Source of the DNA: Sabellastarte sp. h YS-2021
Lineage: Eukaryota > Annelida > Polychaeta > Sabellida > Sabellidae
NCBI GenBank assembly: GCA_964017235.1
Contig: OZ024929.1
Coordinates: 22,193,464-22,257,463, forward strand
Length of the DNA: 64,000 nucleotides
Reading direction: 5' to 3'
A program made the translations under genes and the position numbers. Positions 14,146 to 44,505 of the stretch are shown here, piece by piece. Position 1 is the stretch's first letter; every line of letters starts with the position of its first letter. The notes under the pieces are model-generated. The model saw only the letters and a program-made list of their open reading frames with translations. It searched no databases and was not told the DNA's origin.

Positions 14146-14149
14146 TAAT

Positions 14150-14745
14150 GAGCTACAGGTCTGCAATTTCACTATGTTATATCTGACCAAAAAGTAGGTG
14201 AATCACATATTTAAACAAAATACTCTAAATGTAATAGTTATCAAGTTACAACTGATTTACACAACAGTGATAACGTCAAAGTAGCTATTACTCAGCTATG
14301 CCATGAGCTACAGGTCTATTTTTTCACTATGTTATAGCTGACCCAAAAGTAGGTGAACAACATATTTAAACAAAATACTGTAAATAGAAAAGTTTTCAGG
14401 TTACAAATGATTTACTCAATAGTGAGAACCTGAAAACAGCTATTGTTCAGTTATGTAATGAGCTACAGGTCTGCAATTGCACTATGTTATAGGTGACCAA
14501 ATTAGATGAATAACATATTTAAACAAAATACTCCAAAAGCAATACTTTTCAAGTTACAACTGATTTACTCAACAGTGATAACCTCAAAGTAGCTATTACT
14601 CAGCTATGCAATGAGCTACATGTCTGAAATTTTACTATATTATAGCTGACCCAAAACTAGGTGAACAACATATTAAAAACAAAATACTGTAAATGCAATA
14701 GTTTTTGAGTTACAACTGATTTACTCAAGAGTGAGAAGCTGACTG
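14150..14745. repeat. 155-bp tandem repeat, four units
   Basis: The landmark GAGCTACAGGTCT starts at 14150, 14305, 14460 and 14613, so the period is 153-155 bp. Each unit continues TCACTATGTTATA-CTGACC, AAAGTAGGTGAA, ACATATTTAAACAAAATACT, TCAAGTTACAACTGATTTAC and GTAGCTATTACTCAGCTATG. Units differ by perhaps a tenth of positions, so the array is moderately old. Confidence 0.9.
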
Positions 14746-14749
14746 ACAA

Positions 14750-16920
14750 GCTCTTTATTTATATTTTCTTTTTATAATCGTGCAAATTGTCTTAGAAGAA
14801 AATATTTATAAATATAAAGGGAGGGTTTAGGATAGTTTGAATATAAGTTGTGATATTTTCCAGTGAATACTTGTATTAAAAATCTAGTGAAAAGGATAAT
14901 CCTAGTTTTTACATAAGATCGATTTATGTGAAGTGGGGAAATTGTTGAATAATGACTATTGATGAATATACAGTTATTCTGCCTCTGTTGAAGAGATCCC
15001 TTATCCAGAATGCATCCATGCTTTCAGGCCTCAAAGTGCTCGAGCCACAGGGCTCATCCCTACGTAGACCACCTTAAAGCCTGTGATTCAGTTGTTTCAC
15101 ACTTGAATGGCATAATTATTTTTACCCCTCTTTTGACTGGCCCTCTTGGCGCCTTTCCTTGTCACTGAAGGGCCACGTTGCCACTTTGACTTTGAACCTC
15201 AGACAGTGAGCATAAAAATTTTGTTGTTATTATTTTGTTCACTCTAGTAACTCAACAGAAAGTGTCTTTGCAAATGTTTTTTTTTAAATAAAAAACTCGA
15301 GGAGTAAGAAACAATTTACACTTTAACACCAATATCTGAAAGGAAACTCACAAATAAAACAATGTGGAAAGCAAAGGATTGCATGTTCTACAGAATTTAA
15401 AACAAAACAGCCCATTAAGCAGTCTATTGTATTTACTGAAACACTTTTTATTTCTGCCAACCAGTTGCGCAAACCTTAATATGTTTTTCTTACAAATATC
15501 ACACTCGTGTACAAATATATGAGTACTAGATGTACTAGATGGTCATGGTAAAAAAGAAATGAGACATGGGATTAAACAAAGTTTTTAGACTGTTCATTTA
15601 TACAAATCTTTCCTGTTTCATTGCTAAGAATTTTTATGTTTCTCATATTGGCATTGTTAAGACAAAGGCGCCAAGTTTTACATCTTTCAATTGTGAAACA
15701 AAGGGTTAAATTTTTGCAATCGCTAAACTATTTAGCCAAAATGAAATGTTTATGACAAGTAAAGAGTTTTGCTAAAGGTAATTTGTTTATGATTTTACAT
15801 TCTAAGCCAGAGAGGAAATGTTTACAATGCGTTAAAGATAAGGCTAAAATGTGAAATATTTATTATCAGGATGTTTACTCTTTGTCAGTACACTCCTCCT
15901 CCATCTTAATCGAAGGGAGTAATCACTTTCAGTAGTTTGGGCTATCAACAAGTCTATTTTGACCTCTACTATGACCCAAGGTCATTCTTGACCTTGGTCA
16001 CCACCGTATTGTCTATATTTTAGGTTCATATAAATAATCTCTTTGAAACTCCCAACCTAGTTTTGGTCAGGAGTTTGAAATATTATTTGTTGAAGAATAT
16101 GTAAATGAGCAAATGTTAAAACAATTAGAAAATGGGTGCTTTTTTGACTTGGAACTCTCTGGGGGTGAAAATAATGAGAAAATGTTTACCATCAGAAATG
16201 TATTCAATTAAAAATGTATTTAGCCAAAGGTGATGTGTTGACAATGTCTAAAATCTAAGGTAAAACATGAAGTTTTTGGGTATGTAATTTATTTCTAAGT
16301 GATGCAATATTTAGGTTGATAAATTTAGTACTCGATTTTAATACTTTGTTATGCTTTAAAAAAATTCTACTACAACATTTACTTCAGTATAAGCTTCTAT
16401 GTCTGAAATAGCAAAAAATATATGTTGTTGCATTATATCATTGCTTATATGTTTCTGTAGAGTCGGTAGATTTATTGTTTATTCCTGAGGCAAGCAGCAT
16501 TTTTAGTCAAACCGATTGGATCTTCTTGAAGAATTTCCTGATAGATGTTACAATGAATTTTTATATTGGCCTTTGTCTTGGTCAGGCATGTATTCATGTT
16601 CTCAGTCAAATTAAAGATGTCTTTGCTATGTTGAAACAGAGTGAAAAATGAAAAACTAATTGTTCGTGTGTTCTGTAAAAGGACAATAAACATCTAATAA
16701 AAGTGTCAAAACGTAATATAATTAAAATCTTTTATATTAAATACTCAATTACCCTATTACATGTTTAAACCTTCGTTTATTTTATGCCAAAATGCCATCA
16801 TGAGAAATTTTTGCAACAATTGTAACTGATGACCTTTGTTTCCACTGCCAGCAAGGAATTGAGATAGCTATATTGATGCAATAGTATTGAGTTAGGCTAA
16901 AAGTTGACTGACATACAGTG
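14750..16920. other. Intergenic, nothing recognised
   Basis: There are a few short unique-looking GC-richer patches (for example 14990-15060 and 15140-15200), but no frame or element that I can name. Confidence 0.45.
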
Positions 16921-16924
16921 TGCC

Positions 16925-17170
16925 AATACACTCAATCCTGGTTAACGCTGAATAAGTCTGTTTGTTCCACAAAGGGATCAAGCCAATCTGCTCCAGATTT
17001 TGAAACCTAGTTGTTTAGACTTGCATACCCTCCACCATGGTATATCTCCCCTAGCGGCGATAAATTTGGTTTTTGACCCTGCATGTTCATGAACTTTCCT
17101 TGTTCTTGCCTCAAGCACATTAGAGGATGCTGCGTCTATTTTGAGCTATATAAATGTTTCTATTCTATTC
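16925..17170 (+). mobile_element. L2/CR1-like LINE 3' tail fragment
   Basis: The segment CTTGCATACCCTCCACCATG through CATTAGAGGATG and GAGCTATATAAATG resembles the 3' tails at 3140-3260 and, inverted, 62465-62640. Only the C-terminal scrap and tail are left. Confidence 0.5.
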
Positions 17171-17174
17171 TGTT

Positions 17175-18090
17175 CTAATCCACCTGAGCAGGGTTTAGTT
17201 TTACCTTTTTGAATCCAGAACGTATCCCCTATATGCTTCAGTCCAAGTTAACCCAAGTAAATTCATTAATGTTGAACATCAGGCATAATCCCCATTATTA
17301 AATTTAGTGGAGGAATCTTTGTTGCTGTCCTGTCCAATCCACTGTATATTTACAATTAAGGAGAAATTTAGATCAAATTTTGAAATGTTGACGTTATTAG
17401 AGTTTTTACATTGTACACCAGTGGGAAGAAAGCCGGGTAGTTACATGCCTAATATGGCAGTGCCTGATTTGAATAAAATTTGAGGGGTGGCAAATTTATA
17501 TATGTGTAAAGCAATATTTGTGTACACATCCAAAACTGAACAAGATGATTATTGTCTGTTGGAACCTTTTAAGCACTGGCCAGTAGAATCTATTATGAAA
17601 TCTCAAGTGTTATAAAAAGTGTGTAGTGCCTGTTTTTTTTACAAATTAGTGTGTGCGTTCTTGCTAAACTGTGATCACATTTGTGAGGCACAGAAGTAGC
17701 ACTCTATTATTGTGTTAATGATTAAAAATATAACTCTAATTTGGCAGTTAATAATTTCATTGTACAGTTTGGAGTTTTAAAAGTGAAGCAATCACATTTC
17801 ATTAGTGTAATAGGCAAGCCCCTTGATTGGAAACTGGGCAAAAGCCCTACCAAGAAAAGCCCTACAGGAGAAAAGCCCTACAGTTTTTTTATTTCCATGC
17901 AGAGAAGCAATACACCATTTTCTAGATCTTGAAGAAAGTCGTATACATCATGTTTAGTTTACAAATGAAAGGGTTGAACATTACTTAAATGGTATTTCAT
18001 TTATTATTCAAACTACCCTGTGCTGTAATTTTTAATCCCATTGCCCCTTTGTAGTTTTACAAATTTTAAAATAATTACTTTGTTAATAAA
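17175..18090. other. Pre-insertion flank of the LINE, nothing recognised
   Basis: It includes a small run of AAAAGCCCTAC repeats at 17840-17890 and no supported gene. Confidence 0.45.
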
Positions 18091-18092
18091 TT

Positions 18093-18108
18093 AAGACCTC
18101 TCTTGATT
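18093..18108. repeat. Left target-site duplication of the LINE
   Basis: AAGACCTCTCTTGATT here is identical to 24319-24334, just after the LINE's A-rich tail. A perfect 16-bp duplication is the footprint of target-primed reverse transcription and implies a recent insertion. Confidence 0.95.
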
Positions 18109-18110
18109 TC

Positions 18111-19398
18111 TTGAAAGTGGTAAATACTGATACACCAAGACCAAAAAAGAAAAGCAAAAGGAAAGTTATTTCACCAATTCAAGGACTGGACTTGGAATCT
18201 AGTGCAGATGATGAGGCTAATGAAGATACAATTTCATCCTGCATTGTGGATAAGTTAGATGCCTTTCAACGTACATTTGATATGAATATGGATATGGTGA
18301 CAGAAAGTCTAAAAATTAAAATATCTGATGAGCTGCAGGTGTTCAAGAGAGAAATTACAGAAAAAATAAACAAAAGTGACAAGGAGTACAAAGAAAGAAT
18401 GGGAACAATGGAAGAAAAGATAGTCGAGTTAGAGAAGTCACTTGATATTCAGAGTCAAGAGATTGAAGAATTAAAAAAGGAAAACCATGGACTATTGAAG
18501 AAAATGCAGTTGTATGAAGGCATGATCTGCAGCAATGAAAAAGACACAGAGTACATAAAAGAGGACATTTTACAAATACAGGCCAAGTCCATGAGTGCTA
18601 ATCTGGTCTTTCACAGCATTCCAGAAGAAGACACAGAAACAAGTGATACTACAGCCCAGATTCTGAAGCAGTTCTTCACAAATGAACTGAAAATATTGAC
18701 ACCAGATTTGAAGTTGACTGAAATGGATAAAGTCCACAGATTTGGAAGAAAGATGGGGAAGAAACCAAGACCAATTGTAGCCAAGTTTCTTCAATCCAAA
18801 GGAAAAGAAATAGTGTTGAGGCATGCAAAAAATCTGGATAAGTCCAAAAAGTTTGGAATAAGTGAACAGCAAAACCGCAAGCAGAGTCTGATGCCAAGAT
18901 TCAAAGAAGCCAGGGCAAAAAGCCAGAAGTCCAGATGGTTAAATGACAAACTCTTAGTGGAAGATAGACTTATTTCAGCACATCAAGATAAAGTCAGGGA
19001 TATAAACATGAATGTTGTTGAACGAGCTATGGAATTGAAAGCTAAATCAGCTCCTCCCAAGACGCAACAACTTAGTACTTTCCAAGGTCATGCTATCCCA
19101 ATCACCTGCCAGGTTGACATCATATTAGCCTTACGAGCAGTTCAAGCTGATCCAAGGATAGCTAGAGCTGAACATAATATATGCCTACAGACTAGGTGTA
19201 AAAGACAACTTACTGGAACATTATGATGATGATCATGAATGGGGGGCAGGAAAACACATATTATCAGTGCTCAGGGAACAAAATATCTCCAATACTATGG
19301 TAGTGGTTACAAGGTGGTTCGGTGGAGTTCATATTGGGGTGAAGAGATTCGAATTGGTGAAAGAAGCAGCATTACAGGCACTACAGTTATTACAGTGA
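18111..19398 (+). pseudogene. LINE ORF1: RNA-binding protein with a C-terminal IMPACT-like domain
   Basis: The first frame runs to 19226 (371 codons counted from TTG at 18111; the true start is cut off, and the first ATG is residue 58). It holds a basic RPKKKSKRK patch (10-18), a charged coiled coil (about 60-155), an L1-type RRM (about 162-240, ANLVFHSIPEE to RPIVAKF) and the C-terminal RNA-binding domain (241-290, with MPRFKEAR and NDKLLVEDR). From residue 322 it becomes an IMPACT/UPF0029 domain: STFQGHAIP, IARAEHNI, then, after a small frameshift near 19175, YAYRLGVKD, YDDDHEWGAGKHIL, MVVVTRWFGGVHIG and KRFELVKEAA, ending at TGA 19396-19398. The first part packages element RNA in known families. 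The role of the IMPACT part is unknown. Confidence 0.85.
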
Positions 19399-20268
19399 CC
19401 AAGATGGATACACAAACTGTAAGCTCGGGCATATGTGAACTTAGTGTGACATTTTTTTTACTTTATGTTAATAAGACTTTGTATGGACTTTTTAAAGATT
19501 ACTTGTGAACTTTGTGTGACACTTTTTTCACTTTATGTTAATACCACTTTGTAGGAAATTTAAATATTACTTGTTTTGGACCATATATTTGATAGCTAAT
19601 GTTAATTCTAAGTTTAAAATATCTTGAATCCAATACAGTCTAGAGGTTGGGGGCATGGCAAATATGCTTAAAATAAAATTAGAATATAAAGATAATGCAC
19701 TGTAAGCTGTGATGTCCGTATTACCAAACAAATGTCTTAATAGAATAAATGATCTATATTAATCTATATTAAATATTAAAGTAAAACATGAATAAAAATT
19801 GTATGGTTGTTGCATCACAATATTAGCAGATTGGAATTAAGTTACACTTTCTTATAGGTTAACATGTGTATATTTGGTTATAATGTTGCTGCTGTTTTAA
19901 ACTTTTTTTTTATTGTAATCAATAGATAACCCGATTGACAATCATGCATTGGTGAAAATTAATAATGGTGTAGATCTAGTAGAACTATACTATGCAAATA
20001 TTTTATAATGTAGTCACATAGTCATTGAAAACAGCATAAATTGCATATTTTGGTAACTTCCAGGAAGTAGTAATAAGTATTGTACACCAGTAAAAAAAGG
20101 GGTAGCTTAGTAGTGTGTCTGACAGTAACATACAGAGTTTGTCTTTTGTTTCTATTTTATACTGTTTTTTCATATTACAATGTATTGTGTGTCAGTTGTG
20201 TATTTTTGTCTTGTAGTGGTCTTGTTTGTTCAGGCAAGTTATGTAAATGGCAGTTACATATCTTTTAG
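19399..20268 (+). other. Long spacer between LINE ORF1 and ORF2
   Basis: There are 870 bases without a conserved frame, much longer than the gap in typical L1 elements. They include a ~70-bp direct duplication (GAACTT-GTGTGACA, TTTATGTTAATA-ACTTTGTA) at 19437-19575. How ORF2 is translated across this distance is not evident. Confidence 0.7.
19437..19575 (+). repeat. ~70-bp tandem duplication in the LINE spacer
   Basis: GTGAACTTAGTGTGACA followed by TTACTTTATGTTAATA recurs about 70 bases later as GTGAACTTTGTGTGACA followed by TCACTTTATGTTAATA, including the shared ACTTTGTA and ATTACTTGT phrases. Confidence 0.85.
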
Positions 20269-23200
20269 ATGGATAGTATTAAAAAAATAAGTAGGGATAG
20301 TGTGCAAGCTTTGTCCTGTAAATTCTTATCAGTAAATATTAGAGGCCTACGAGACAAATCAAAAAGATTAAAAGTCTTTAATTGGGTAAACGAAATTAAA
20401 TCAGATATTACTCTTTTTCAAGAAACATTTAGTTTAGAAGAAAATGAAAATGAATGGACAAGAGACTGGGAGGGTGGACAGGTTATATTCTCGCATGGTA
20501 GAAACCATTCCAGAGGATGCTTAATCACAGTAAATAAGAACTTAGATCTGAAAATATTAAAGAAAGAAGTTGATGTGAATGGAAGGTATATATTATTACA
20601 GGTTGAGTTAAAAGGTGAAGAATTTTATATCCTTAATGTTTATTTGCCAAATAGTGTTCATGAGAGAGTTAATTATTTGGAAAAACTTACAAATATTATG
20701 AATACATATGACATTAATCAAAATAGCAATATAATTATGGGTGGCGATTGGAATATAATACAGAGTTTAACAGATAAACAAAGCATAAACCGAAACATTG
20801 AGGATACCTCTTCAGTAACATTAAACAAATTGATGACACAATTTGATTTGTGTGATATATGGCGAGTCAGGAATCCTACAGTAAAAAGTTTTACTTATAG
20901 AAAGGTCAAGAGCTCATATAGAAGTAGACTAGACTTTTGGTTAATTTCTGACATACTCCAGGAATTTATAGTATATTCTGACATTTTACCAAACATATAC
21001 TCAGATCACTCAGCCATAGTAGTTGGTTACCAAATGACTCAAGATAGAGACAAAGGAAAAGGTTTTTGGAAATTTAACTCCTCACTTTTAGGTGAACAAA
21101 CCTATGTTGAATCTTTAAATAAATCAATTGATAAATGGTTAAAAGAGTATAAGGAAGTACAAAGTAAGCAACTTATTTGGGAATTACTAAAGTATGAAAT
21201 AAGAAAATTTACAATCAAATATTCAAAAGAAAAGAAATCAGAATGTGCAACACAAGAAAAAGAACTAAGAAACAGATTATTAGAATTAGAAAAATTGTCA
21301 GATCCACCAAATGAAACAACAGAAAATGAGCTAAATAAAATAAGGCTCTCCCTAAAAGAGATAGATGATTATAAATTAAAAGGAGCAATAATAAGATCAA
21401 GAGTAAAATGGATAAAAGAGGGGGAGAAAAGTTCAAAGTATTTTTATAATTTAGAAAAGAATAACTATTGTAAAAAAAATATTGGGAAATTGAAAATAAA
21501 TCCAGAAGAAATTATTACAAACCCAGAAAAAATAAGGGTTTTTCAGAAAGAATATTATGAAAATTTATTAAGCTCAAAGTTCAATAATAAAAATGTAAGT
21601 AATGAAAAATTCTTCACTGATATGCCAAGTATCCCTCAACTTACAAATCAGCAAAAACAAAGTTGTGAAGGCAAGATTTCAATTAATGAATGTACAAAAA
21701 TTTTAAAAACTTTTTCAGAAAATAAATCACCTGGTAATGATGGCCTGACTATTGAATTTTACAAACATTTCTGGAATAAAATAAACAAAATTCTAGTTGA
21801 TAGTTATAATGAAAGTTTTGATAAAGGCATTTTGACCAATAGTCAGAGACAAGCTGTAATAACTCTCTTGCAAAAACCAGGAAAAGATCGTTTATTGTTA
21901 CAAAATTGGAGACCTATTGCCCTTTTGAATTTAGATTACAAAATATTAACAAAGGTAATTGGTCAAAGAATCCAAGTAGTTTTACCAGACATTATTCATG
22001 AAAATCAATCTGGCTTTGTATCAGGTAGAAAAATAGAGCATTCAGATTCAGTCAAACTAATTCAAGACATCATGAATTTCACTGAATATAAAAAGCAAAA
22101 GGGTACTTTCTATTCATAGACTTTGAGAAAGCTTTTGACTCCATTGAATGGAACTTGATATTCAAAGCTTTGGAGACCTTTAATTTTGGCAATGAACTAA
22201 TAAAATGGATTAAAATATTTTACAATGATGTATATAGTTGCATCATAAATAATGGGAAAACAACTCCATATTTCAAAGTTGGTAGAGGAGTTAGACAAGG
22301 AGATCCATTATCACCTTATTTATTTATCATTTGTACTGAATTACTTTCAATCTCAATCAGAAACAATAACAAAATTAAAGACATAAAATTAGGGGATACT
22401 GAGATAAAGCTAATACAATTTGCAGATGATTTAACCTGTTCTTTTTCTGATACTGAATCAGGAAAAGAAATGTTCAATACACTCCATAAATTTGAAACTT
22501 TCTCAGGCTTAAAAGTAAATCAATTGAAAAGTCAAGGTTTGTGGTTAGGAAAATTAAAAGAGAGTGGAAATAACTACTTTGACAAAAATTGGACAACAAA
22601 ACCAGTAAAACTCCTGGGAATATATATTGGACACAATTCAGAAGAAGTAGAAAACCTCAATTTTACCTCTGCACTGAGTAACCTAGACTGTACTTTAAAT
22701 CAGTGGAAAGGTAGAAATCTGTCATTAAAAGGGAAAGTTTTAATAGTTAAAACTTTAGGATTATCCAAATTCACATACTTAAGTAAAGTTTTACATGTGC
22801 CTGATAAAATCAAACAACAAATTAACAAAAAGATATACAGTTTCATATGGAATGGACAAACAGAAAAAGTAAATAGAAAAATTTTTATGCAGCATTATAC
22901 CAAGGGAGGTTATAATATGCATGACTTTGACACAGTTGATAAGGCTAACAAAATAGCTTGGGTATTAGAACTATTGAAAAGCAACACTTTGCTATTGGCA
23001 ACATTTCTCAAAACAATAACAGTTGGGACAAATTTGGATCTGTTTTTGAGAAGTAATTTTTCAAAACAAATGATTCCCAACTTCCATGTTCTTCCCCAGT
23101 TCTATAAAGATATGTTGTTAAACTGGATTGAATTTACAAATGACAAAAATAATATAAGTAGCAGTCATCGCTATGCACATTTAATATGGTATAACACTTT

Positions 23201-24078
23201 CATATATGGCCATAATAGTCCAATGGAATATTTTAACAATCGAATGTTTCAAGCCGGACTGTGGTTTGTTAGTGATTTATTTTATGATAATGATAAATTA
23301 ATACCAATTAATATCTGGATGAAAAGAGGGGTGCTAGCCCAAGATTATTTGACATGGAGAGGTTTAGTTACCACTGTGAGGCAAAAATCTATGAAATATA
23401 TAAGAAACAATTCAGATGAAAAACTTCAAGATAAACCTCTTGTAAATTCATCTAAAGAAATAATAATTTCAATGAAGCCAAAACTATTTGAAAAAAATAA
23501 AAGGAAAACAAATAAAGTATGTGTTCACTGAGAGAGCACTCCACCAAGTTAAATATAAAAATAAAATTTACTATAACGCATTATATGGTCAAACTATCAG
23601 TAGTAAATGGGAAGATGTCTTCAAAATGCCATACATTATGCCTGTTGATAACCATATTAGAGATTTAAATTATAAGATTCTGTTCAGAATTACGGCGACA
23701 AATAAACTTTTATACCAAATGGGAATAAAGAATAATCCAAATTGTCTTATATGCTTCTTATCGGTTCACGCAGTAGAACATTTATTTTATGAGTGTAATA
23801 CTACTAAAAATTTTTGGGTCACTTTGAGCTATATGTGGAAAATGTACATTCACAACAAGAATTTTAACATTGGTCTATCAGACATTATTTTTGGGTATAA
23901 TCTTCAAAATTTTGAAGGCACCAAATCTTTAAATACAGTAATCTTGCAGGCAAAATATTATATATATAAATCCTTTTTAAAGGAAAAAGCTGCTACAATA
24001 ACGGGATTCTTATCTTACTTAAATCAGTATGTTAATATTTGTAGAAAATTGAAAATAACTTGGGAAAACATATTCTAG
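20269..24078 (+). pseudogene. LINE ORF2: APE endonuclease and reverse transcriptase, split by two frameshifts
   Basis: It starts at ATG 20269 and runs in three frames, 20269-22119, 22155-23531 and 23488-24078, about 1,270 codons in all, normal for L1/Tx1. The N-terminal endonuclease shows LSVNIRGLRD, LFQETF, YILNVYLPN, MGGDWNI, SRLDFWLIS and YSDHSAIV. The reverse transcriptase shows KSPGNDGLTIEFYKHFW, NWRPIALLNLDYKI, ENQSGFVSGR, IDFEKAFDS (just after the first frameshift near 22110), GVRQGDPLSPYLFI and QFADDLT. The last frame has the zinc knuckle C-x2-C-x9-H-x4-C (CLICFLSVHAVEHLFYEC). The second frameshift lies around 23490-23530. The endonuclease nicks the target and the reverse transcriptase primes from it. 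Lacking one intact frame, this copy cannot make the full protein. Confidence 0.95.
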
Positions 24079-24310
24079 ATACACTTAAATCTTTTGTAAC
24101 TACTGCAATTTGAAAATTTAAGCTGATTTTAATTATGTTCCAAAAAAAAACTTTAAATGTAAATATACTCTAGCATATATACCTGCCTGAATGATGTGGA
24201 ATTGTATTGTCTCTGTGTTTTGTTTTCTTGTCAGTTTGTATTGTCTGTGCCACGTGCCATTGTTTTTGTTATGTATGATAATTGTAATGTACAAAAACTT
24301 AAAATAATAA

Positions 24311-24318
24311 TAAAAAAA
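24311..24318 (+). other. A-rich 3' tail of the LINE
   Basis: A short run of A following AAAATAATAATA directly abuts the right target duplication, as in retrotransposed copies. Confidence 0.85.
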
Positions 24319-24334
24319 AAGACCTCTCTTGATT
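24319..24334. repeat. Right target-site duplication of the LINE
   Basis: AAGACCTCTCTTGATT, identical to 18093-18108. Confidence 0.95.
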
Positions 24335-24487
24335 ACAGTTACTCAATCTCTAGGTGATAACTAATAAAACAAAACAACATTGCAGCGAAATGGAGTTTTG
24401 TTCTAGAATTTTTACAGTCAGTTGAACTTAGAATTTGTTTCTGATGATTGGGAGTTGTTTACTTTCCTTTCATTAGTATGTTTTTAC

Positions 24488-25230
24488 CTAATCTAATCTA
24501 ATGTGGACTTTTATAGCGCTTAATATCCACCAATGACAGACTCTAAGGTGCATCTGAACATAAAACAATGCAATGTATGTTAATCCAATGACATAGCCAG
24601 GTCATACCAAGGAGACACAGGGGTGACAAGGGAGGCTATGGCAGATAGGCTTTTCCAAACATGTAAAGTTTTGAGTTTTTTCCCGAAGGAGGCAACAGAT
24701 GTTGTGCAGCGCACATCATTAGGGAGTTCATTTCCAGATCTTAGGAGCATCTCAGGCAAAACTATGGGCAATATCTTTGGCTGACTTAAAGACTGATGAG
24801 TGAAATGGAGGAACTGTCAGGTATCAGGGTGACTATGCCTGGTACTATAGGAACAACTGTTGAGAGACAAGAACGGTTCAAAATAGAAAGAACCACTATG
24901 TAAAATTTGCAAACCAGTGTTGCAGTTATGAACATACAGCATTACTTCACAGCAACCAGTGGAATTGCTTAGGATGGGTGTAACAAGAGCATACTTTCTA
25001 AGATTTGTGACAATACAAGCAAGGTATTCTGAATATTCTGCATCAAACCACACACCTAGGTTTTTGACAATGGATGAAGAACGCTTCCAAGAATACTGAC
25101 AGGAAATTCAGAGGAAATTTTCTGATGTTGAGCCTTAGAACCAAAAACAATAAATTCACTTTTTTCAGGGTTGAGCTTCAATTTATTGAGAGCCATCCAT
25201 CATCATACATCCTGAAGGTAGCAGCATATC
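24488..25230 (-). mobile_element. L2/CR1-like LINE, 3' half of the reverse transcriptase ORF and tail
   Basis: On the minus strand, with several stops and shifts, one reads WMALNKLKLNPEKSEFIVFG (25230-25140; the N-x-LKLN-x-xK-x-EF motif of the reverse transcriptase palm/thumb), VWFDAEYSEYLACIVTNLRK, then DAPKIWK/NELPNDVRCTTS and FGKKLKTLHVWKS, the usual C-terminus. A tail with TAAGCGCTATAAAAG and TAGATTAGATTAG (24488-24503) follows. It is heavily decayed. A sister fragment lies at 55135-55615. Confidence 0.75.
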
Positions 25231-25234
25231 AGCC

Positions 25235-26460
25235 ATATCAGCCATATAGAAAGGGAATTTAATACCTGGATGGAGGCTGATGATATTTTTTTAAATGTTA
25301 AAGATATTTCTTTATATTTTAATTTGCAGAAAAATAAATGTGTATGTCATATAACAAATACTAAAAACAATAATAATTTTGAAATAATGAAAGTGATATG
25401 TAACTTTGAAACAGTTTATGTTTGCACATCTTCAAAGGACTTTTATCCACAATCTCAAAAATGGTACAGGGTGTTCTCGAGGGGGCTCAACAAATTGTAT
25501 GACTTTTTTCTGTATGGGTTTTCTCTGCAGGGCTTTTCTATATATGATGAAAACCTGATGCAGGATATTTTGGAAAAGGGAAGTACATGTACCAAGAAGT
25601 TGTTATTTGTGTAACTTGATAACCAGTGAAATATGTAACATCTTTAAAATTATGGAGTTATTTATTTTAGGCTCTGTGAAAGGAATTCTGGTAGACATGT
25701 TATAAATAATGTTTTCTCAAACTTCACAATTGCTGAGGTCATATTTTAAAACACCAACCCCACACTCAGGTGTATTATACTATCAATTCAGTGTACCAAT
25801 ACATCTAGCCTTGCCCCTGGGCTGTACCAAAGCCCCTGGCTCAATACATGAAATACTGTAAGTCTGTACAAATACTATGCTGGCTTTTACATGAAACATA
25901 AACTCTTGGTATTTCTTTCGGACCTTAGATACTAGGCTCTGGTTAGAACTAAGTAGAATGTAACATAAAATGTAATGCCGATTCCCTTTGAAAATTAATT
26001 ATGTTTTTTACAGGTCAGATTGTTTCTTTCAGTCACACTTAGTTCCAGTATTCAATTTGCTCTTTGAATATCATGGATACCTGCTGTTGGAAAAATATAA
26101 AAATATAGAAAAATATATAAAATATAAAACATAATAGCTTAATAGCTTAGAGTATAGAACAAGACTACCCAAAACCAGAAGATATACAATACTGTACATA
26201 CATGTTACTTTGTGTTAATCATTTGCATAGTGCAAACGTTTGGGTTTACAATCACTTTTGACCAAAAAAACAAAATACAGGCTGATAGTATATGGAAGTG
26301 GTTAAATGGCAAACTAGTCAACCACTCTACATTAACATTTCTAAAGAAAGTGACAATTATGGAACATATTTAATACTGGGTTGTGTAGAAAAATCTGGAA
26401 TACCATAAAATCGGCATACATGTTAATACAGTTCAAACCTTATTGATCAATAGTTATTTC
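25235..26460. other. Intergenic, no supported gene
   Basis: A 114-codon plus-strand frame (25270-25614) opens MEADDIFLNVKDISLYF and matches nothing I know. It may be chance. The stretch near 26095-26140 is low-complexity AAATATA. Confidence 0.35.
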
Positions 26461-27502: not shown

Positions 27503-28536
27503 ATGGCTCCGAGGAAATATAAATGTAATCAATGTAACCAAACCCACAAGAAACCAATTGACGAACAATGCCCGTCTTTGTTACATAATGATAGTACTGA
27601 AAGTGTGAACAGTAGTCTTCAAAATACTGACGTTAATAGCCAGATTCTGGCGGAACTACAAAAATTGAATGGCAGAATTGCCACAGTTGAGGAGAAAGTA
27701 CAAAATAACGCTCAGAAACTGTCCAATGTTGTACCTCAGGTTTATAATACCCCTGTCACACAGCCCCAGCTCATGGGTGAGGCGACAAACGTCAGAAGTA
27801 GACATTCTTCTGCAGCTGAGTCATCAGTTAGAAGTCAAGACGTAGTGGTACTGTCACTCAACTCCCTCCAGACGTCTCAAAGAATCCAGGCTGAAGTGGA
27901 CGAGAGACTGCGTCACCTGGCCCATTTATCCACAGAACAAGGTAAATTAAAGAGCCAAAGGGGGGCAGTGAAAATATTTATGTTAAAAAACAGATTCCCT
28001 GGCCCCAAAATCACATATTAGGGGGTCAGGCAAAAGCTAGAGTGTCATATGACGGTTTGTCATGGTGCCAATGGATGGCAGGTTTTGCCACCATAGCAAG
28101 AGAAGAGTCGGACTTAGACACGAAAAACGCGATGCTGGAATATCTGGCTGATCTCATGGAGGATGCCCACGACTTTTCGTGGGCATCCGCCAAGGGCAGT
28201 CATGCCGTATTATTATGTAAAATGGAAGAAGGAAAAATACAATGGACAGACACCCACAAAATCGACCGCGTTCGACGGGCACATGCCCAGCGTTTCACTC
28301 AGCAGAATGCTCAAAATTCGCAAAAAAGAACGGATAGCAAGGGAATACCTTGCAAATTTTTTCAAAAGGGCACATGCCAGCACAAAACGGGCCACAAGTC
28401 GGGCTCAGTCTTTTATAAGCACATTTGTTCAGGCTGTGCCTCTCAGGGTAAAGAATACAGGCATGCAGCAAAAGATTGTCGGGTATCTCGTTCAAAAAAC
28501 GAGTCAGGCACTGCAAAACTGCAGTGCCAAGTGTAG
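27503..28536 (+). pseudogene. Fossil gag-like region
   Basis: A cysteine/histidine-rich beginning, a middle stretch and a zinc-binding Cys/His cluster near the end resemble the first ORF of Ngaro/DIRS elements, which packages element RNA. The second fossil has a recognisable counterpart. It is broken about once and treated as a fossil. Confidence 0.7.
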
Positions 28537-31319
28537 AAAACCAATACGTGTCAAAAGGTCATATGGGACAGGTCGAGGATGCAATGTATAGGAAAGTTTG
28601 TAAAAAATCAAAAAGCAGAACTGTATATAATAAATGTTTGTACAATGTTGAAAGTGTAAACTGGAGGGCTGATTGGTCCAAATTCTGTAACAGGTCATAT
28701 GCAGAGGTGGTGAAACAAAATAATCAGCCTAGGCTGAAAGTTAAAAAGTACACAAAGATCATGTCATATCCCAGAGACATTAGGCAGGTCAAAAATGTCC
28801 TCTCTAATCATAGGGCCACCCACGAAGAGGGTCAGTCCAAAACTGTATCCCAAAAAACCACTGCCCTATCCAACACCAAAGTAGTGAGACTTAAAACCAC
28901 CAATGTAAGGGAGAGGGATTTTTTCCAACTTCCGACCAGAAATAGGTTCAATTTGCTAAATCAAGATCTGCAACCAATTAATGACACAGAAACCACTTTT
29001 AATCCTAATGCACCAGAGTATGTACCCATAGCAAACAGACAAGTAAAGCAAAAGGGCAAAACAACTCAGCAAATGTATATCACCGAAAACCCAACCACTA
29101 TCGACACAAATCGCAGCAATGTGAAAGCACCTTTAGATTACAGTGACGTCACACATAATAACACTGGGCAAAAGGTCAGACAGTGCAGATGTCCACAAGG
29201 TAGGAGCCAACTCGTTTCTGACGTCACTCACAGACAAAATAATCCAGCAGACACTCTCAAGGTGAACCAGGACAATTTCAGTGCACAAGTACTACAAGCC
29301 CCTCACCAGGCTAGCAATGAAACCCATAACTCGTCTAGACGTAATATTGGAAAGTTGCGTGACAATGCGGGGGTGGCTAGTCAGTGCAAAAGTGGGGGAG
29401 GGACAGTTTTAAAACCTAAAGCTCCTGTCACATTGTACCGATTCCCTTCACCAAACACTGATTGTGGGGCGGTTGATAAAAAACAGTACTCACCACTGCT
29501 GGATGACAAATACAGTCTAGCCATTCATAATAAAACCTATAAAAAGGCATTACTGTGGCAAGCCAGGGACAATACCACCTTCAAAAAATGGCAATCCCAA
29601 AATAAAGACAAGTTTGGGTTTACACCTTTAGGTGACCTCACTGTACCCAATGTCAATTTGGCTAATAATACTACCGACAGTCCTCTTGATATTCACAAAA
29701 GGGTCAGAGCTTCTCAAGTGCCAAATTTTTTAGGTTTTCAAATTAACATCAGATCTCAGCTAAACGTTGAGGCATGGGAAGAAGTCCTACAAGACTATTG
29801 GGATAAACAACTACTTTTTCTTATTAGGTATGGGTTCCCCTTGGATTTTGACAGCAAACTTGAGGCAGACCTACAACATAGTGGAAAAAACCATCCGTCA
29901 GCCATACAATTTCCCAGTCATGTGGACACATATTTAAAAGAAGAGAGTGAATTTAAAGCTATTCTAGGCCCTTTCAAGGACCCACCCATAAGCCCCCTTC
30001 ACATTTCACCGTTCCTGACACGGGAAAAACAAGGATCTCAAAACAGACATGTTATAATTGATTTAAGCTTCCCTAAGGGTCATGCAGTCAACTCTAACAT
30101 TTCAAAGGATGTTTATTTAGGCACTCCATTTCTTTTAACCCTTCCTTCTATTGATACCATCACAAACAAAGTCAGGCAGCTAGGCAAGGGCTCACATTTA
30201 TACAAGGTTGACATCACTAGGGCTTTTCGGCATATCAAAATTGACCCTAGGGACTATCATTTGCTAGGGTTAAGGCATGAAAACTACTTTATTGACACCT
30301 GCCTGCCATTTGGATACAGGCACGGGAGCGCTATTTTTCAGCGTATAAGTGATGCTGTGCGTCACGTAATGACGTCACGGCGCCATGACATCATAAATTA
30401 TCTGGATGACATAATTTGGTTCGAACTCCCATCAAAAAGCAATGATGCCTTTCAGTACCTCCAGGACCTCCTAAGAAAACTAGGTTTTTCTCTTAACGAA
30501 AAAAAAATTGTAAAGCCACAAACCAAAGTCTCTTGCTTGGGAGTAGAAGTTGACACTGTCAACTTTACCGTCGCAGTTCCCCCGGAAAAAATGAAAAAAA
30601 TCAAAGAAACATGTTATGGCTGGGTAGGTAGGAAAAAATGTCGTAAAAATGAATTACAATCATTATTGGGGGCACTTCTGTACATTAGTAAATGTGTGAA
30701 ACATGCAAGAAGTTTCCTCAATAGGATGCTAAGTGTTCTGAGAGACAACTATAACAGCAGTGTTATCCTCCTTCCAGATATTTTTCACCAAGATTTGAAC
30801 TGGTTTATAAAATTTTTACCATCTTTCAATGGCAAAGCCTTTTTTGACCACACCCCTGTGGCCGGTGAAATTCAATTAGACGCATGTCTTCAGGGCCTGG
30901 GTGCTTGTTTCACTAATCAAGTATATACTATAGAAATACCATTAGGATACAAAGACTTCAATATTTCGCATCTAGAAATGCTAAACATTCTGGTAGCATT
31001 AAGAGTATGGGGACCAGCTTGGCAGGGAAAGAAATTGCTGGTCCACTGCGACAATCAGGCTGTGGTCGCCATTTTGAATTCAGGGGCCACCAGGGATCTT
31101 ACTTTGGCTGCCATAGCCAGAAATATATTCATGGAATCGGCCAAATGTGACATTAACCTAAGTGTCATACACATATTAGGAAAAGACAACCCCATAGCAG
31201 ATCTGCTCTCACGTTGGTATATCACAGATAATGCAAATACAAAATTGAGGGACATGAAACCACAGCCCAGATGGGTAAATGTCCCCAGTAATATTCTTGA
31301 AATTGATTGGTCTATATGA
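28476..31319 (+). pseudogene. Fossil reverse transcriptase and RNase H region
   Basis: This long frame has a low-complexity N-terminal part, a reverse transcriptase core with a YLDD-type active-site box, and an RNase H domain with the usual D...E...D pattern, of the DIRS/Ngaro kind. It overlaps the gag-like region upstream and slightly overlaps the recombinase downstream, as this family is known to do. It appears open throughout. Confidence 0.85.
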
Positions 31320-32320
31320 ATTTAGGTATAACCGGGGCCATGCACAGCTTGGCAGAGAAAGCAGTAGCCAGGACTCAAAGGGCGTTTCAACCATCGACTC
31401 AAGCAGCCTATAACAGACATTTCAGGTCCTTCCTGGCCTACACCATTGTTATGAATTTTGACATCATATGTTCCCCTGTTTCTGTCATGTTACTGTTATC
31501 ATTTCTGGAATCTTTGGTACAAAACAATACCTCCCATTCAGGAATAGCAAATTGCCTTTCAGCAATCAAAGCCAAATTATCTCTCCATGGCAAATCAGTG
31601 CAAGCCTTCAATTATCCCAGAATAACATACTACCAAAAAGCCCTCATCATGGATAAGCCTTTTAAAGTCAAAATCAATGCCATTATTAATATACCATTGT
31701 TGAGTAGAATCATCAGTTTGTGCGACACCCTCTACATGGGACAGGTGTATAAGACGGCTTATCTCATTGCCTTTTTCTCATTTCTCCGGATTTCCAACTT
31801 AGTCCCACATAAAATTTCCGCATATTCTCCTTTGAAGCAGCTGGCAAGAGCAGATGTCATCTTTGGCCCACCAGGGCTGCATCTTGTTCTGAAATGGTCA
31901 AAAACAATGCAGGCAAAAAATGCAGTTAGAATCATCAAACTTCCTCAATTACCTTTATCACCTTTATGCCCAGTTAATGCCACAAGAAAAATGCTCAAAC
32001 TTGCGCCAGGCACAGCCGATTCACCCTTGTTTCAAACAAAATCCAAATCACAGTGGCTCCCACTCACAGATTCTCAGCTACGAAAACACCTAAAAGGGAT
32101 TATGCTAAAACTAAATATGTCACAAGCAGGGATCACATTCCATAGCTTCAGGCGGTCAGGGGCCACTTTTGCATTTAATGCTAATGTTCCCATGCAAAAC
32201 ATAAAGAGTCATGGTACTTGGACTTCCAATGCAGTCTGGAGGTATATCACCCAAGACCACAACACCTCGGAACAGGTAGCCAGGGCCTTCCAGACTGCCC
32301 TTTCCTGCACCACCTCCTAG
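31307..32320 (+). pseudogene. Fossil tyrosine recombinase region
   Basis: A phage-integrase-like recombinase with an N-terminal core-binding part and a C-terminal catalytic part showing the H-x-x-R pattern and a late tyrosine. Ngaro/DIRS elements use this enzyme in place of a DDE integrase, so they leave no target-site duplication. It appears open throughout. Confidence 0.85.
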
Positions 32321-35929: not shown

Positions 35930-38760
35930 GGGTTCACTGATATTACAGCAAGGATGTGTGGTGCACTCTGATTGGCTGACCTTTGGGGTCAGAGGCGATG
36001 CCCCCTCTATTCCCTCCAAAACTGTATTTTCCCTCCAGTTTTGTAAAGTTCTGTGAACTGGGTGGATGACATGAAAAATTTAACTGTTTATCTGTTTTAT
36101 TTAATGATTTTATGTGGTGTTTTATTGCTAGACTGTAAATTGTACCAATTTTAACTGATGGTCATAATATTACTGAGCTGCGTTTGCACACTGTGTATTA
36201 TGTGAACTATGGACTGCAGTTGTGGCAGTTTGCAGGAATTTGTCTTCTTGATAGTGTCAGGCTTCACTTGGCTAATCAGAAGGGATGGTCTAACCTATGT
36301 TATTAACCCTTGCTAAGTGAATTCTGAATCCGTGGAAGCCAGATTTCTATGAGAGTGTGCTCCCTTCATGCGTTGTAGTGTCAGTGATTTTTGACTTATA
36401 TAAAATGTGCAAAAATAATAACTGGTGCACCACTTGCACTAAGAAGCACTTTTCACAGACTGGTAAAAAATGCCCTGTAAATATAGAGAAGCAAAAACAA
36501 GAGAAGGCAGCCGTGAATGTTTCAGTGGAGGAAGGCAGTAATATATGGGACAGTCTGTTGGGTCAAACCGTAACCAAGAGCCTGGCCTTGGCTGGGTGCA
36601 GCACTAAGGTGGGCACTCACAAAGACTTGTTTGTAGTTGGACCTGGTACCCCTGGTCATGGCGACCTCTGTGCCTCTTCCAGTGCTGATTCGACAGACAC
36701 GGAAGAAGAAGAGGACAGTGGTGACATTCAAGCAAGGATTCTTCAGAAGTTGCAGAGAATGAACAGTTGCCTGGATGTGGTTGAGCAGCAGGTGGGACAG
36801 AAGTCTTCAAGATTAAGCAAGGACCATAAAAAACATAAGTTAAGTACTGTTTGTAAACCGTTAAAAGTGCCAGTAAATTAAAGTAGAAAAGTCAAGTGTT
36901 ATGTTCAGATGTTTCATCTGATGATTCAGATTTCCCTACTTTGAGTGATATAAGGTCCTCAAAGGCTGTCCAGAAGAAGATTGACAGGTCGACTGCTAAC
37001 TTGGACTCAAGTCATATTCCACAAGGTAATGATCAGACCCAAAAACTGAAATCTAAAAGGGGGGGGGACCTGTGGAAGTGCTAGTAAACAAAAAAGTAGC
37101 TTTGCCCCATGAACACAAACTGGGGGCTTTGAATCGCCATTGGTCACTTATAACCAGCTGTGCTTAACTCAGTTTATTCAGGATTTTGTCAAAAACATCA
37201 TTGATGAGCAAGATGGGGACTGTAAAGATAAAATGCTTCATTATCTAGGAGATTTGATGGAGGATGAGACTGATTTTAGCTGGTCAAGTGCTAAATCAGC
37301 CCATGCAGTCCTCCTATGTGAAATGGAGCGGGGCTCACTAGATTGGTTTAATACTGACCGGATTGATCGCATAAGACGTGCCCATGCTCAACGTCATAGT
37401 GCTCAACTGAAACAGAACTGGCAAAAAAGCACTGAGCAAACCAAAAACCATGGTTTTGTAAGGCTTTCCAGGTGGGTATGTGTTATCACAGTAAAGACCA
37501 CGAGAACAATGGCAAAAATCATAGGCATATATGTGCTTACTGTATTTCCCTTACTGTATTTCAAATCATGACACACCCACAGAAGGATTGTTTGTTTTCC
37601 AAGAAATCAGGTTTGTCAAAAAACAATCAAATGGCTGCTCAGCAGAACTAGGGCTGAGCAGATTGCCTGCACAAAACACAATATGTACTGTTATCTCTAC
37701 ACCCTATAAAACAGAGGTAGGTCATGTCAGTACTGCAAAAGTGGCTGCTCAAGGATCTTTAGAGAGACAGGTAACCTGACAGGTAACCTGACTATTATGT
37801 CTGGGTCATATCAACGTTTACTTGACTTGTTGCGTTGTCTGGGACTTGACATCAGCCACAAAAAGTTATGTTCCACCCAGTACCAATGCTGTATGTCTGG
37901 GCGTCGAGATGGACACCATATGACGCACTATTTCTGTTCCTGAAGACAAGTTGCGGTGCATATGCCAGATGGGAGATGACTGGGGTAATAAGCATTTCTG
38001 CTCTGTGCATCAGTTGTAATCTTTGCTAGGTCATGTCATGTATATTCAGAAATGCGTCGGACCATCACATTTTTTTTGTGAACAGAATACTTGAACTCCT
38101 GAGATCAAACTATGAAGCAAAAAGCATTACACTGAATCATGACTTCAAAAGAGATATCAGATGGTTTAAAACGTTTTTGTGTCATTTTAATGGCACTGCA
38201 TTTTACGACCATAAACCAATTCAAGAAGTTTTGGAGCTTGCCTAGTTGGTTTCGGTGGCAGGTGTAACAATAAAGTTTATAACTTCCCCACTGTCAAACA
38301 TTACAAAAACTTGCACATAACCCACTTAGAGATGGTAAACATACTGGTGGCAGTCAGAATTTTTGGTCCTAGTTGGTCAAACAAAAAAGTACTGGTGAGA
38401 TGTGATAATCAAGCGGTTGCACATGTACTGAACAATGGTAGAACAAAAGTTGCTTTCATGGCAGCTTGTGTGCAGAACATATGGTTGGAAGCCGCCTTGT
38501 ATATCAAACAGTCTGTCAAGGTTAAATGTAAAATTGGGTTTTCATTCTAATAAATACACATTTCACACATTTCGATGCTCAGGGACCACTCTGGCTTATA
38601 GGTCTAATGCCTCACTTCAGTTCATAAAGAAACATGGCTCCTGGGCTTCGGACAGTGTTTGGACTTACATTCAGGAAAATCAGCATTCTAGCAAAGAAAT
38701 TGCCCGGACTTTTACTCATATTGTATAAATGTTTACCTATTTCTACTGGGCCTTTGAGAG
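35930..38760 (+). mobile_element. Second Ngaro/DIRS-type fossil, badly broken
   Basis: This has the same plan as the element at 26890 but much shortened: a 5' region with GATTGGCTGACC near 35970, a gag-like part (about 36404-37560), remnants of reverse transcriptase and RNase H (about 37800-38550) and the end of the recombinase (about 38525-38728). It is broken in many places, at least five, and clearly older than the first copy. The gag-like parts of the two copies are similar enough in order to place them in related families. Confidence 0.8.
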
Positions 38761-40439: not shown

Positions 40440-43150
40440 ATTTTAAATGCTCATGACCTCTCGACTTTGGACTTAATGTTTTTTTTTTGCAAACAATGAT
40501 ACCCATACATGAAGTCCAACAAATTAAGATTGGTTTTAATGGAAAGTTTTAACCCAAAACATGTTGTAATGTTTTTCCAAAGGTCAAACACAATTTGACA
40601 TCTGGCAAATAAGTGGGTAATGTTTTCGCATTGCTGATCACATATTCCACAGGTAAATAATTACTTCCCTGCTAAATACTGCTAAACACAACACTAATAA
40701 GAAATGGAATAAGAAATGGAACATGTGTTTCTCCAATTTAACTTTAGAAATAAGATTTTGCTATCTATGAATTTTGTTATCGGATGTTTCATTCTATAGA
40801 AATGTATACTTTCAGATTTAATTTATATTTTGTTTTAATTCAACTGGGACAAAAATGATTCCATCTGAGTTAAGTAGGCCTGTCACCTAGTTATGCATGT
40901 TTTGAACCAGATTATCTTATGCCAAATGCTACTACTAAAGAGATCTTTGTTTTGACATTTTAATTTTTAAATGATGTTATCAATTTCAAATACATTACTC
41001 CAGAAGGAATTAAGATTTATATGTGTGTTTTACAGCTTTCTTGTAGTAATATGTTCCATTGCAACCTTGCCTTTGATAAAAAATACTTTTTATCCACCTA
41101 AGTTTTAATGAATTTTAAAATTTAAAAATAGCTACCGTAAGTAGTCCACTATTTAAATAATCAGCACAGACATTTGGTCTTTTAAATTGGTATGTTTTCC
41201 CTCCCCATACATAGGAAAAACCATTCTGTTTAAATCATCTTACACTATTTGGGGTGTAACAACAGACATCATTGAATGATTAAATTTAGACATAATCATT
41301 GTTTGTATCACGGCTATCCCAATAGGAGCAACCTACTCTTCCAACAACAATTTAGTAGTTTTTTGGCTTGTTCATTGCTATATTGAAATTTAGTTCAGGT
41401 AGATTTTCCAGATATACTGAAAACTCAAAACCAAAAATGAAAACTCTGTATCTCCCCAGTGTAGCTTTGCCGAAATATTTAGCTTTTCTTTTACAGTGAT
41501 TTTGGTACATATTCATATAAATTTAGTTTTTTTTCAGTATTCATTTTGAGATCTGACCTAAAAGAACAAAATGTTTAAAGCTGTCTGCAAGGAATTTTGA
41601 ATTCCATTAAGTAGTAGTGTAGTGTCATCTACAAATTGCATAATTTTCAAGGCCTGGACATCACGACACTGATAATAATAGCTAATAAACTTTTTAGTCA
41701 AAATATTTAAAATTTCTGGAACAGTTAAGAAAAGATATTGTAAAATTGGATCTTCTTGCCTACATCCACGGGCAATGTGTGTAACGAACTCAAAGAATTC
41801 CGCATTGTTACACAAAAGCAGTTGCATTACTGCTAAATAATTTTATACAGTTAATAAAGGCTTTATCAAAACCAGAGATCAAGTTGAGTTCAAAAATTTC
41901 AGTGACACAGTCAAAGTTTTTTTTTCGAAATCTATTAACAGGATCAAACATGGAATGTTATGCTTTTCTGTAAAAGTCATGATGTCATAAACCACATGGA
42001 ATATTTTTCCGTGTATGTCATGCTTTGATATAACATGTTTGGCTCTTTGAGATTAAATTATCAAGACAGGGCTTCATTCTTTCTAAGACACCAGATACTA
42101 ACTTATATACAGCACATAGGAGAAATATTGATCTCCAGTTCCTTAAACAATAGTCTGTTCCTACCATTTTTGGCAAGCATATAAAATGCTTTGACGCCAT
42201 GATATTGGTTACATACCTTTGCATTTGTAATGTGGTTTTTTCAGTTTTCCACAAAATACTTTCAAGACCGTCAAAAGCCATCTATATGCATAGATTTATT
42301 GCTTTTCATCTTTTTAACACATTACCTGATGTTCCAAGTAAATTATGCTTATTTTTTAAAAAGATTACTATAGGATTATTGCATTGATTTTAATATTTTG
42401 TGTTGTTCTGTTATAACAAAACCATCAGGTGTTTGCATTTTTAATGTTATCAACAAAAGTTTGGGTTTACAATTTGCAAAAAAAGTTGGTGGGTTTTATA
42501 CCCTGGTCTTGACATTGCAAATGTGCTCTTACCATCTGACCTATTTTATTTTTTTATTTATAGACATCCCAAATTTCTAGAAGCATATTTGTCTATGGTC
42601 AGTTCAATAGTGTGATGGTTGTATTCAAGATTATAACTTGGAAAACCATAATTTATTTATTTTTGAAATCACATTAGTTCAATCAAAAGTATAATCACTC
42701 TACATATAAACATTCATATTGCTTTGTATCAATGTCACCAGCAGCTTAAGTAAAGTTTAAAATTACTTTAGAGGCCTTTAAGTACTTGTGCACTTGATAT
42801 TTTTTATCTTTTAAGTAAAGTATGCAATTACTTCTGACCTGATTGGACAATAAAACTTTTTTCCTAGACAAAAAAAGATATTATATAGTGATGCATATAG
42901 ACCACAAACTAAAAAATGATAAGTATCAAATCTTTTCACAAATATTTCTAACCTATCTTGTTGCTGATACACTTTTTCATCAGTGTTAATTTTGCACCTA
43001 AGAATGTATTAATTGTAGAAAGTCCTTCTGTTTCTTTATCGATTTGCATATGAAAAAGTTGCCCACAAAGATGACATAGTTAACAGCATGATAATATTGT
43101 GTATCACAATTAAAACCCCCAAGTAAAATTTCGAAAAATGTAAAATTGAC
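40440..43150 (-). mobile_element. Decayed L1/Tx1-type LINE, most of ORF2
   Basis: Read on the minus strand, with many shifts: an endonuclease scrap LLGGFNCD near 43120 (GGDFN motif); DYCLRNWRSIFLLCAVYKL and CLDNLISKSQTCYIKA at 42018-42160 (the NWRPISLLCVDYK...QTGFI-GR region of reverse transcriptase); ARGCRQEDPILQYLFL and IMQFVDDTTLLL near 41600-41780 (GxRQGDPxSPYLF and FADDT); SWSNVFEID near 40990; and a C-terminal zinc knuckle CGICDQQCENITHLFARC near 40600. It is much older than the LINE at 18109 and from a different lineage (the VDDTT and LLCAVYK wording differs). Confidence 0.85.
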
Positions 43151-43254
43151 ACATTGCCTCAGGTCCAAAGAAAGGTAATAAGAACCGCAGTTGGAGGAAT
43201 ATATACATTTTATTCATCTAACACACATATACACATCTAGTTGTATGTACAATT

Positions 43255-43665
43255 ATAGCAGAATACACGGTGATGACTTTGAGGCCACCTTAGTTATGAA
43301 AGGTATTTAAGGCCAAGGCGGAAAAGTTAAGGTGGCCCTATCTTGTGGTTAGCAAGTAAGGTCACCTAATGGTTTAGAATAATTTTGGTTTAAGTTCATG
43401 TTGACCTCAAAGTAATTATTAAACTTACACCCCAATCAGAGGTGGCCATGCTGTTATGGTCTGTACAGTTATGAAGATTACATAATGAAGACCTCAAGGC
43501 CACCTTAAGTACATGATATAGATATAAGGGCAGGAGATAAAGGTTAAGGTGGCCCTATCTTGTGGTTAGCAAGTAAGGTCACCTTAAATGAATTTAGAAT
43601 GATTTGGGTTTAAGTTAGGGTGGCCTCGGTGTGAATATCTGAGTTTGAACAAGATTAGAGGTGGT
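43255..43665. repeat. ~218-bp direct duplication with AAGGTCACCTTAA motifs
   Basis: AAGGTGGCCCTATCTTGTGG followed by TTAGCAAGTAAGGTCACC occurs near 43329 and again near 43547, and flanking segments such as GAGGCCACCTTA also recur. Two units are visible. The TAAGGTCACCTTAA motif at 43574-43587 is shared with other repeats in the window. Confidence 0.8.
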
Positions 43666-43669
43666 GAGA

Positions 43670-44400
43670 CGTTTATGGTTAATTTAGGAAATCTTTAAAA
43701 TTTCTTGTAGGAAAACATTCGTTTTTAACTTTACTGAAATTTTGTTAAAACTAACTTTTTTTGTGGAAAAGAAGAAGCCCCTGGAGGGGAATAGCAAATA
43801 TGGTGAGATTAAGGCCAATAGTAAGATGACAAGATGAAAATACAGATTTAGTGAATAAAAGATGCAGTAGATATAATTATATTGTCTGTAACAATAGCTG
43901 GGTTGTTGTACAAATTTTGATGCATAAATCCGTAAAAGTGTTATGATTTCATCCTCTGAAATCCAAATCAGGTCAGCAGTAGATTTATACAGAACCTAAT
44001 TTTTATTCATGACAAAAACTAATAAATAATTGTTGCAACAGCATTTCTTTCACCATCATTCCCATTCATACGTCTGACAAATTTTGCACTTGGCAGTCAT
44101 TGTGTTACAAAATTATATGAACCATATGGTTTTGGCAGCTTCCATGGTGTACCTTACTGATGACATTTTCAAACCACCAAATGGAAGAGTCAAGGTTTCA
44201 TTGGAGACTAGATGCTTTCAGTTGCTCCACACAAAATTCATAAAAAAGAGCTTTTAATTCAGAGATTACTCACCAGAATTTAAAATATTTTGACAGATGG
44301 TCATTGTTAGTACACAACTTTCTATGTTGGTGTACAAGATTGTAATCCAGTGCTGAAAAACAAACCCAAAGCCAAATATTTCAAGAGCAGCTTTCATAAA
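43670..44400. other. Intergenic, nothing recognised
   Basis: I see no supported frame or repeat here. Confidence 0.5.
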
Positions 44401-44404
44401 GTCA

Positions 44405-44505
44405 GTTTTACTGTGCTGACCAATGGCAAGCAACTACCAGCTTTCCAACTTGAGGTTGGGACGGGATTCGAATTCCGATCGCAGAGGTGGGAGGTGAGAG
44501 TGTTA
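44405..44505 (-). mobile_element. tRNA-derived SINE (family 1), head-containing fragment
   Basis: The minus strand shows GTAACACTCTCACCTCCCACC, a B box within GAATTCGAATCCC, and AAGCTGGTAGTTGCTTGCC, as in the copies at 7690 and 52038. The 3' tail is missing. Confidence 0.75.

Follow-up and report, generated by a model that had tools for sequence, protein, structure and literature searches.

Anatomy of the locus

The stretch analysed here, 64,000 nucleotides of contig OZ024929.1 from the annelid Sabellastarte sp. h YS-2021 (hereafter the window), contains a long interspersed nuclear element (LINE) whose first open reading frame (ORF1) very probably closes with a complete IMPACT (UPF0029) domain, known otherwise from proteins connected with the starvation response of cells. 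A reading made earlier from the letters alone (the original prediction) had proposed that a mobile element captured this domain from its host. The features of the element and of its insertion site are as follows.

18093..18108, plus strand: left copy of the target-site duplication, AAGACCTCTCTTGATT, an exact 16-base repeat with 24319-24334
18109..24318, plus strand: LINE insertion, 5'-truncated inside ORF1 and with an A-rich 3' tail, bounded by the 15-16 base direct repeat
18120..19073, plus strand: ORF1 basic N-terminal part, probable coiled coil and middle part, in an open frame
19074..19178, plus strand: opening third of the IMPACT (UPF0029) domain, still read in the frame of ORF1, from PF01205 and local alignment
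19165..19182, plus strand: small frame slip in an AT-rich repeat, from sequence and frame comparison
19180..19395, plus strand: remainder of the IMPACT domain, in the +1 frame, from PF01205 (8.6e-19 alone) and 6bqi (5.3e-9, query 19165-19395)
19399..20268, plus strand: T-rich gap of 870 bases separating ORF1 from ORF2; it contains a 70-base unit twice (19434-19574)
20269..24078, plus strand: ORF2 in three frame pieces (20269-22119, 22092-23531 and 23476-24078), with endonuclease, reverse transcriptase and zf-RVT
24319..24334, plus strand: the duplication's right copy, which follows the A-rich tail without a gap; its first A may belong to the tail

ORF1 runs into an IMPACT domain

Frame 0 is open from 18090 to 19223 and contains STFQGHAIP...IARAEHNI. 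The continuation, YAYRLGVKD...KRFELVKEAALQALQLLQ, is read in the +1 frame (19180-19395) and is directly followed by TGA at 19396-19398. Stop counts are in line with this reading: between 18120 and 19178 the used frame has none while the two others have 30 and 34, and between 19180 and 19395 the counts are 0 against 5 and 4. Counts and frames thus agree with the original prediction, in which the ORF1 frame ran through a small slip into an IMPACT-like domain ending at this same TGA. The slip between the two parts of the domain lies inside a short AT-rich repeat; either a mutation or an error in the assembly could account for it.

The search against PF01205 that had been proposed as a check was run and proved significant. 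The second half of the domain alone matched with E = 8.6e-19 (68 bits) and the protein read through the slip with E = 1.4e-22 (80.1 bits, model positions 3-107 of 107), both passing the Pfam cut-off of 27 bits. The last model position, 107 of 107, falls at residue 330 of the 334 residues of the read-through protein. When this protein was compared with PDB sequences, it matched 6bqi, named "Protein IMPACT homolog" (258 residues), at 1.9e-11, TTHA1053 at 5.2e-4 and YigZ at E 2. Judging from its length and name, we take 6bqi to be yeast Yih1; TTHA1053 is, from its locus name, presumably a Thermus protein. The domain was also aligned locally to three references (two fragments from the PDB-match alignments, one eukaryotic and one from Thermus, and a short bacterial frame; 500 shuffles each), with Z-scores of 29.7, 30.5 and 19.3. 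Together with the PF01205 E-values, these Z-scores rule out a chance similarity to the IMPACT family.

Evidence that the domain moved as part of the LINE

The element carries the hallmarks of a LINE: an endonuclease and a reverse transcriptase in ORF2 on the one hand, a target-site duplication and an A-rich tail on the other. The ORF2 profile matches were above their cut-offs (PF03372 2.4e-9, PF00078 1.1e-24, PF13966 3.6e-7). The insertion site reads TT/AAGA, which resembles the L1 endonuclease site TT/AAAA. By its length alone the duplication is only fair evidence, and a repeat of at least 15 bases was reached in 2 of 200 trials when the flanks (16500-18300 plus 24050-25300) were shuffled base by base; once the right copy is tied to the tail, the rough chance of 15 matching bases is about 4e-6, a simple product and not a simulation. 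Because the insertion starts inside ORF1, that frame has no ATG all the way from its last upstream stop (18087) to 18282.

Since the duplication surrounds 18109-24318, ORF1, the IMPACT domain, the 870-base gap and ORF2 entered the site as one unit, and the source element most likely carried the domain already. Even a single copy therefore points to joint mobilisation of LINE and domain, and the duplication around the whole unit bears out the view that a mobile element had captured an IMPACT domain. The longest direct repeat flanking the domain itself measures 8 bases, a length reached or exceeded in 305 of 500 shuffles. Both this repeat, which stays at shuffle level, and the start of the domain in the ORF1 frame make it unlikely that an IMPACT piece inserted later into a LINE copy already in place.

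The insertion looks young: its frames are shifted by small slips at three places, and the pieces examined contain no stop. A 5'-truncated copy was presumably dead on arrival, so that its ORFs have been unselected since insertion, and the intact reading of the domain would therefore come from the source element. All together, we consider it highly probable that this is a non-LTR (long terminal repeat) retrotransposon of the endonuclease and reverse transcriptase type, with an ORF1 ending in a complete IMPACT domain, present as a recent 5'-truncated insertion. This judgement covers anatomy and mobility, and the docking step proposed below is graded apart.

A gap of 870 bases between ORF1 and ORF2 is long for a LINE. 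It could be regulatory, or a captured 3' untranslated region.

Composition, relatives and further copies

A codon-use score trained on the element's own ORF1 and ORF2 favoured the used frame in both halves of the domain: -0.05 against -0.38 and -0.93 in the first, 0.19 against -0.40 and -0.28 in the second. The frequency of A at third positions was 0.39 in the domain (106 codons), 0.39 in ORF1 and 0.40 in ORF2; the overall A of the flanks was 0.31-0.34. Because its third positions match those of the element, the domain may have resided there for long, a suggestion kept weak by the 106 codons on which it is based.

In the alignments to the three references, the domain was identical to the eukaryotic IMPACT homolog at 37 of 107 positions (score 156), to the bacterial relative at 29 of 89 (score 153) and to the Thermus relative at 32 of 83 (score 117). 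With the first two scores close and the third lower, neither a eukaryotic nor a bacterial ancestry is readable from these references. The domain is about equally distant from all three relatives, and these comparisons do not single out the host as its source.

The second half (77 residues) was further compared by tblastn with phage records, which returned 20 matches of at most 42.0% identity, and with plasmid records, where identity reached at most 48.9% among the 20 of 66 matches listed; in both sets the named features were YigZ or hypothetical.

Several observations weigh against the reading of a domain that belongs to this LINE and serves it. The DDGE motif of the references is DDHE here. 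The codon score of the domain is lower than that of the remaining ORF1 (where six 150-base windows, all part of the training data, scored 0.28 to 0.43), and in the interval 19320-19469, about half of which is domain, the score is best in another frame. A single copy was found, tblastn detecting no second one within the 64-kb window. In the IMG/VR viral collection no LINE relative was recovered, protein patterns yielding 3, 13 and 35 stretches, none confirmed, and four DNA patterns 0. The scan of prokaryotic genomes gave 10 stretches, one of which (L005) encodes a bacterial IMPACT protein (PF01205 2.8e-18); in none of them was a LINE seen. The scanned collections, viral and prokaryotic, hold few eukaryotes, so that these misses carry little weight. 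Finally, the functional step is, from beginning to end, one that we infer.

The bacterial IMPACT protein on L011 (87-458, minus strand), from the genome of L005 (Candidatus Aegiribacteria), has an RWYGGxHLG motif, a form usual in the eukaryotic type.

ORF1 upstream of the domain

The middle part of ORF1, about 160 residues, runs without a break into STFQGHAIP. Upstream of it, a coiled coil is probable: a helix with a mean pLDDT (predicted local distance difference test) of 67-82 was modelled over 18393-18482, in an otherwise poor single-sequence AlphaFold2 model, and coiled-coil families matched ORF1 below cut-off.

The original prediction placed L1-type RNA-binding domains in this region. We could not confirm them: in profile searches run to a limit of E 10, with filters that remove most matches above about 0.1, no family matched the middle part above its cut-off and PF02994 was not listed, and the two single-sequence AlphaFold2 models (mean pLDDT 41.8 and 54.9) were too poor for fold searches. 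The L1 ORF1p chain was likewise absent among the PDB sequence matches of ORF1. By eye only, the order of motifs in the middle part resembles the RRM and CTD of L1 ORF1p. The same profile searches listed no RWD domain in the part of ORF1 present, the N-terminus of which is truncated.

Possible role of the domain

We lean towards the view that in a LINE lineage the ancient IMPACT domain has become a fixed part of ORF1, kept by selection as an adaptor that links the protein to a conserved host partner involved in translation, stress or the control of the cell cycle; this would constitute a new ORF1 type. The likeliest of the modes of action considered, put forward only tentatively, is docking: the C-terminal end of the ORF1 protein would serve as a docking module whose conserved face brings an ancient host partner to the LINE RNA particle. 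That partner would be linked to translation or would perhaps be a cyclin-dependent kinase. In the published model of the ancient domain, the invariant loops all face one side and may form a binding surface for a conserved partner; a Yih1 fragment made of this domain (133-258) was no less efficient than the full-length protein in pulling down Cdc28 (PMC4503747). In the mouse, L1 ORF1p interacts with PRKRA, which regulates PKR; with L1 and PRKRA in HeLa cells eIF2alpha phosphorylation was moderately lower, and in mutant testes no difference was seen (PMC10289378). The change of DDGE to DDHE may mean that binding differs from that of the host protein.

The main rival to docking, which we hold doubtful, is that the domain helps ORF1p to bind or chaperone RNA, working beside the middle part; RNA binding was one of the two functions offered by the original prediction. 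L1 ORF1p is indeed RNA-binding and varied domains are common in LINE ORF1s (PMC4120745, PMC5940361). However, the computed isoelectric point (pI) of the domain is 6.6, with a net charge of about -1, against a pI of 9.0 for the remaining ORF1, which speaks weakly against RNA binding. The proposal is kept as a rival, somewhat disfavoured by the pI. The other function offered, in which the domain would make ORF1p an inhibitor of the GCN1-GCN2 stress branch and keep host translation on during retrotransposition, appears very unlikely. When overexpressed in yeast, full-length IMPACT and Yih1 do bind Gcn1 and inhibit Gcn2, yet substitutions in helix H3 of the RWD reduce Gcn1 binding and abolish Gcn2 inhibition (PMC4503747), and the RWD of Yih1 alone, when overexpressed, impairs yeast under amino-acid starvation (PMC7140605). 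The RWD, to which GCN1 binding is tied, had no match in the part of ORF1 present, truncated at its N-terminus; the GCN2-blocking idea is therefore poorly supported. Because the RWD part was not found, this ORF1 is not a full copy of the IMPACT protein that competes for GCN1.

It is also conceivable, if unlikely, that the fusion is a one-off chimera, in which a single source transcript or master copy took up a piece of IMPACT complementary DNA that has no lasting role, most of the family being without it. This would agree with the observation of just one copy, and with a domain that ends a few residues before the ORF1 stop, much as the end of a host mRNA could; more speculatively, the 870-base gap could then be the captured 3' untranslated region. 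But the domain begins in the ORF1 frame, without a stop, its identity to the three references (the host's own IMPACT not among them) is only 33-39%, and its third positions share the composition of the element, all of which speak against this reading.

Other features of the window

Short and weak tblastn similarities to ORF2 of this LINE (E 9e-5 to 0.03) were seen at 41618-44609 on the minus strand. They are perhaps decayed fragments of other LINEs; tblastn found no ORF1 or IMPACT match in that interval. On the plus strand, 28452-32320 looks like a DIRS-type retrotransposon, with an RVT_1 match (4.9e-12) and a sub-cut-off one to RNase H, and after these a sub-cut-off match to a tyrosine recombinase (0.0028). 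RNase H was matched weakly once more at 38215-38550. Two tandem repeats were noted, one of 73 bases at 46207-47006 (11 copies, 95% matches) and one of 155 bases at 14147-14737 (3.8 copies, 82% matches). Across the window (1-64000) the observed/expected ratio of CpG is 0.32, with TG (1.27) and CA (1.30) in excess. Such a depletion fits a heavily CpG-methylated genome, either vertebrate-like or that of one of the few such invertebrates.

Comparison with known ORF1 types and IMPACT proteins

The IMPACT (ancient) domain is conserved in all kingdoms and its own function is unknown, as stated in two studies (PMC4503747, PMC7140605). A transposon that keeps this ancient half, apparently without the RWD, thus offers a handle on what the domain does alone. 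The element also bears on how LINE RNA particles handle host translation and stress control. The mouse L1 ORF1p is tied to the stress response indirectly, via PRKRA (PMC10289378); an ORF1p with its own IMPACT domain would open such a link to direct testing.

Compared with IMPACT/Yih1 proteins, which combine an RWD and the ancient domain, the protein described here has the same ancient domain at its C-terminus (PF01205), where it is identical to 6bqi at 37 of 107 residues. It differs in that this domain is fused to ORF1 and has DDHE for DDGE, and in that the N-terminal RWD by which an IMPACT/YIH1 protein is defined was not found in the part of ORF1 present. The YigZ family (TIGR00257, 1vi7, 2cve) has the same N-terminal domain, and TIGR00257 matched with E 2.5e-10; the match reached 40.2 bits against a family cut-off of 167.95 and covered only positions 21-111 of 205, and the C-terminal half of YigZ is lacking, which sets the LINE protein outside that family.

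Among LINE proteins, L1-type (Type II) ORF1p, built of a coiled coil, an RRM and a CTD, has its coiled coil probably in common with this ORF1, which differs by an extra C-terminal IMPACT domain and by PF02994 not being listed. Full-text literature searches, with subscription papers and Repbase outside their reach, returned, among the papers listed, no printed account of an IMPACT-bearing LINE ORF1; the original prediction, too, knew of no described ORF1 type with this domain. Five ORF1 types are distinguished in the parts at hand of the classification (RRM plus CCHC, L1-type, PHD, esterase and an unclassified rest), where UPF0029 is not named, and the word has 0 occurrences in the main text of that paper (PMC4120745). 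The viral-type helicase domains captured by insect LINE ORF1s (PMC5563155) constitute a precedent. Neither of these two sources names UPF0029 in the portions at hand. The ORF1s with an esterase, PHD or helicase domain carry an additional domain (PMC4120745, PMC5563155), as does the IMPACT-bearing ORF1 described here.
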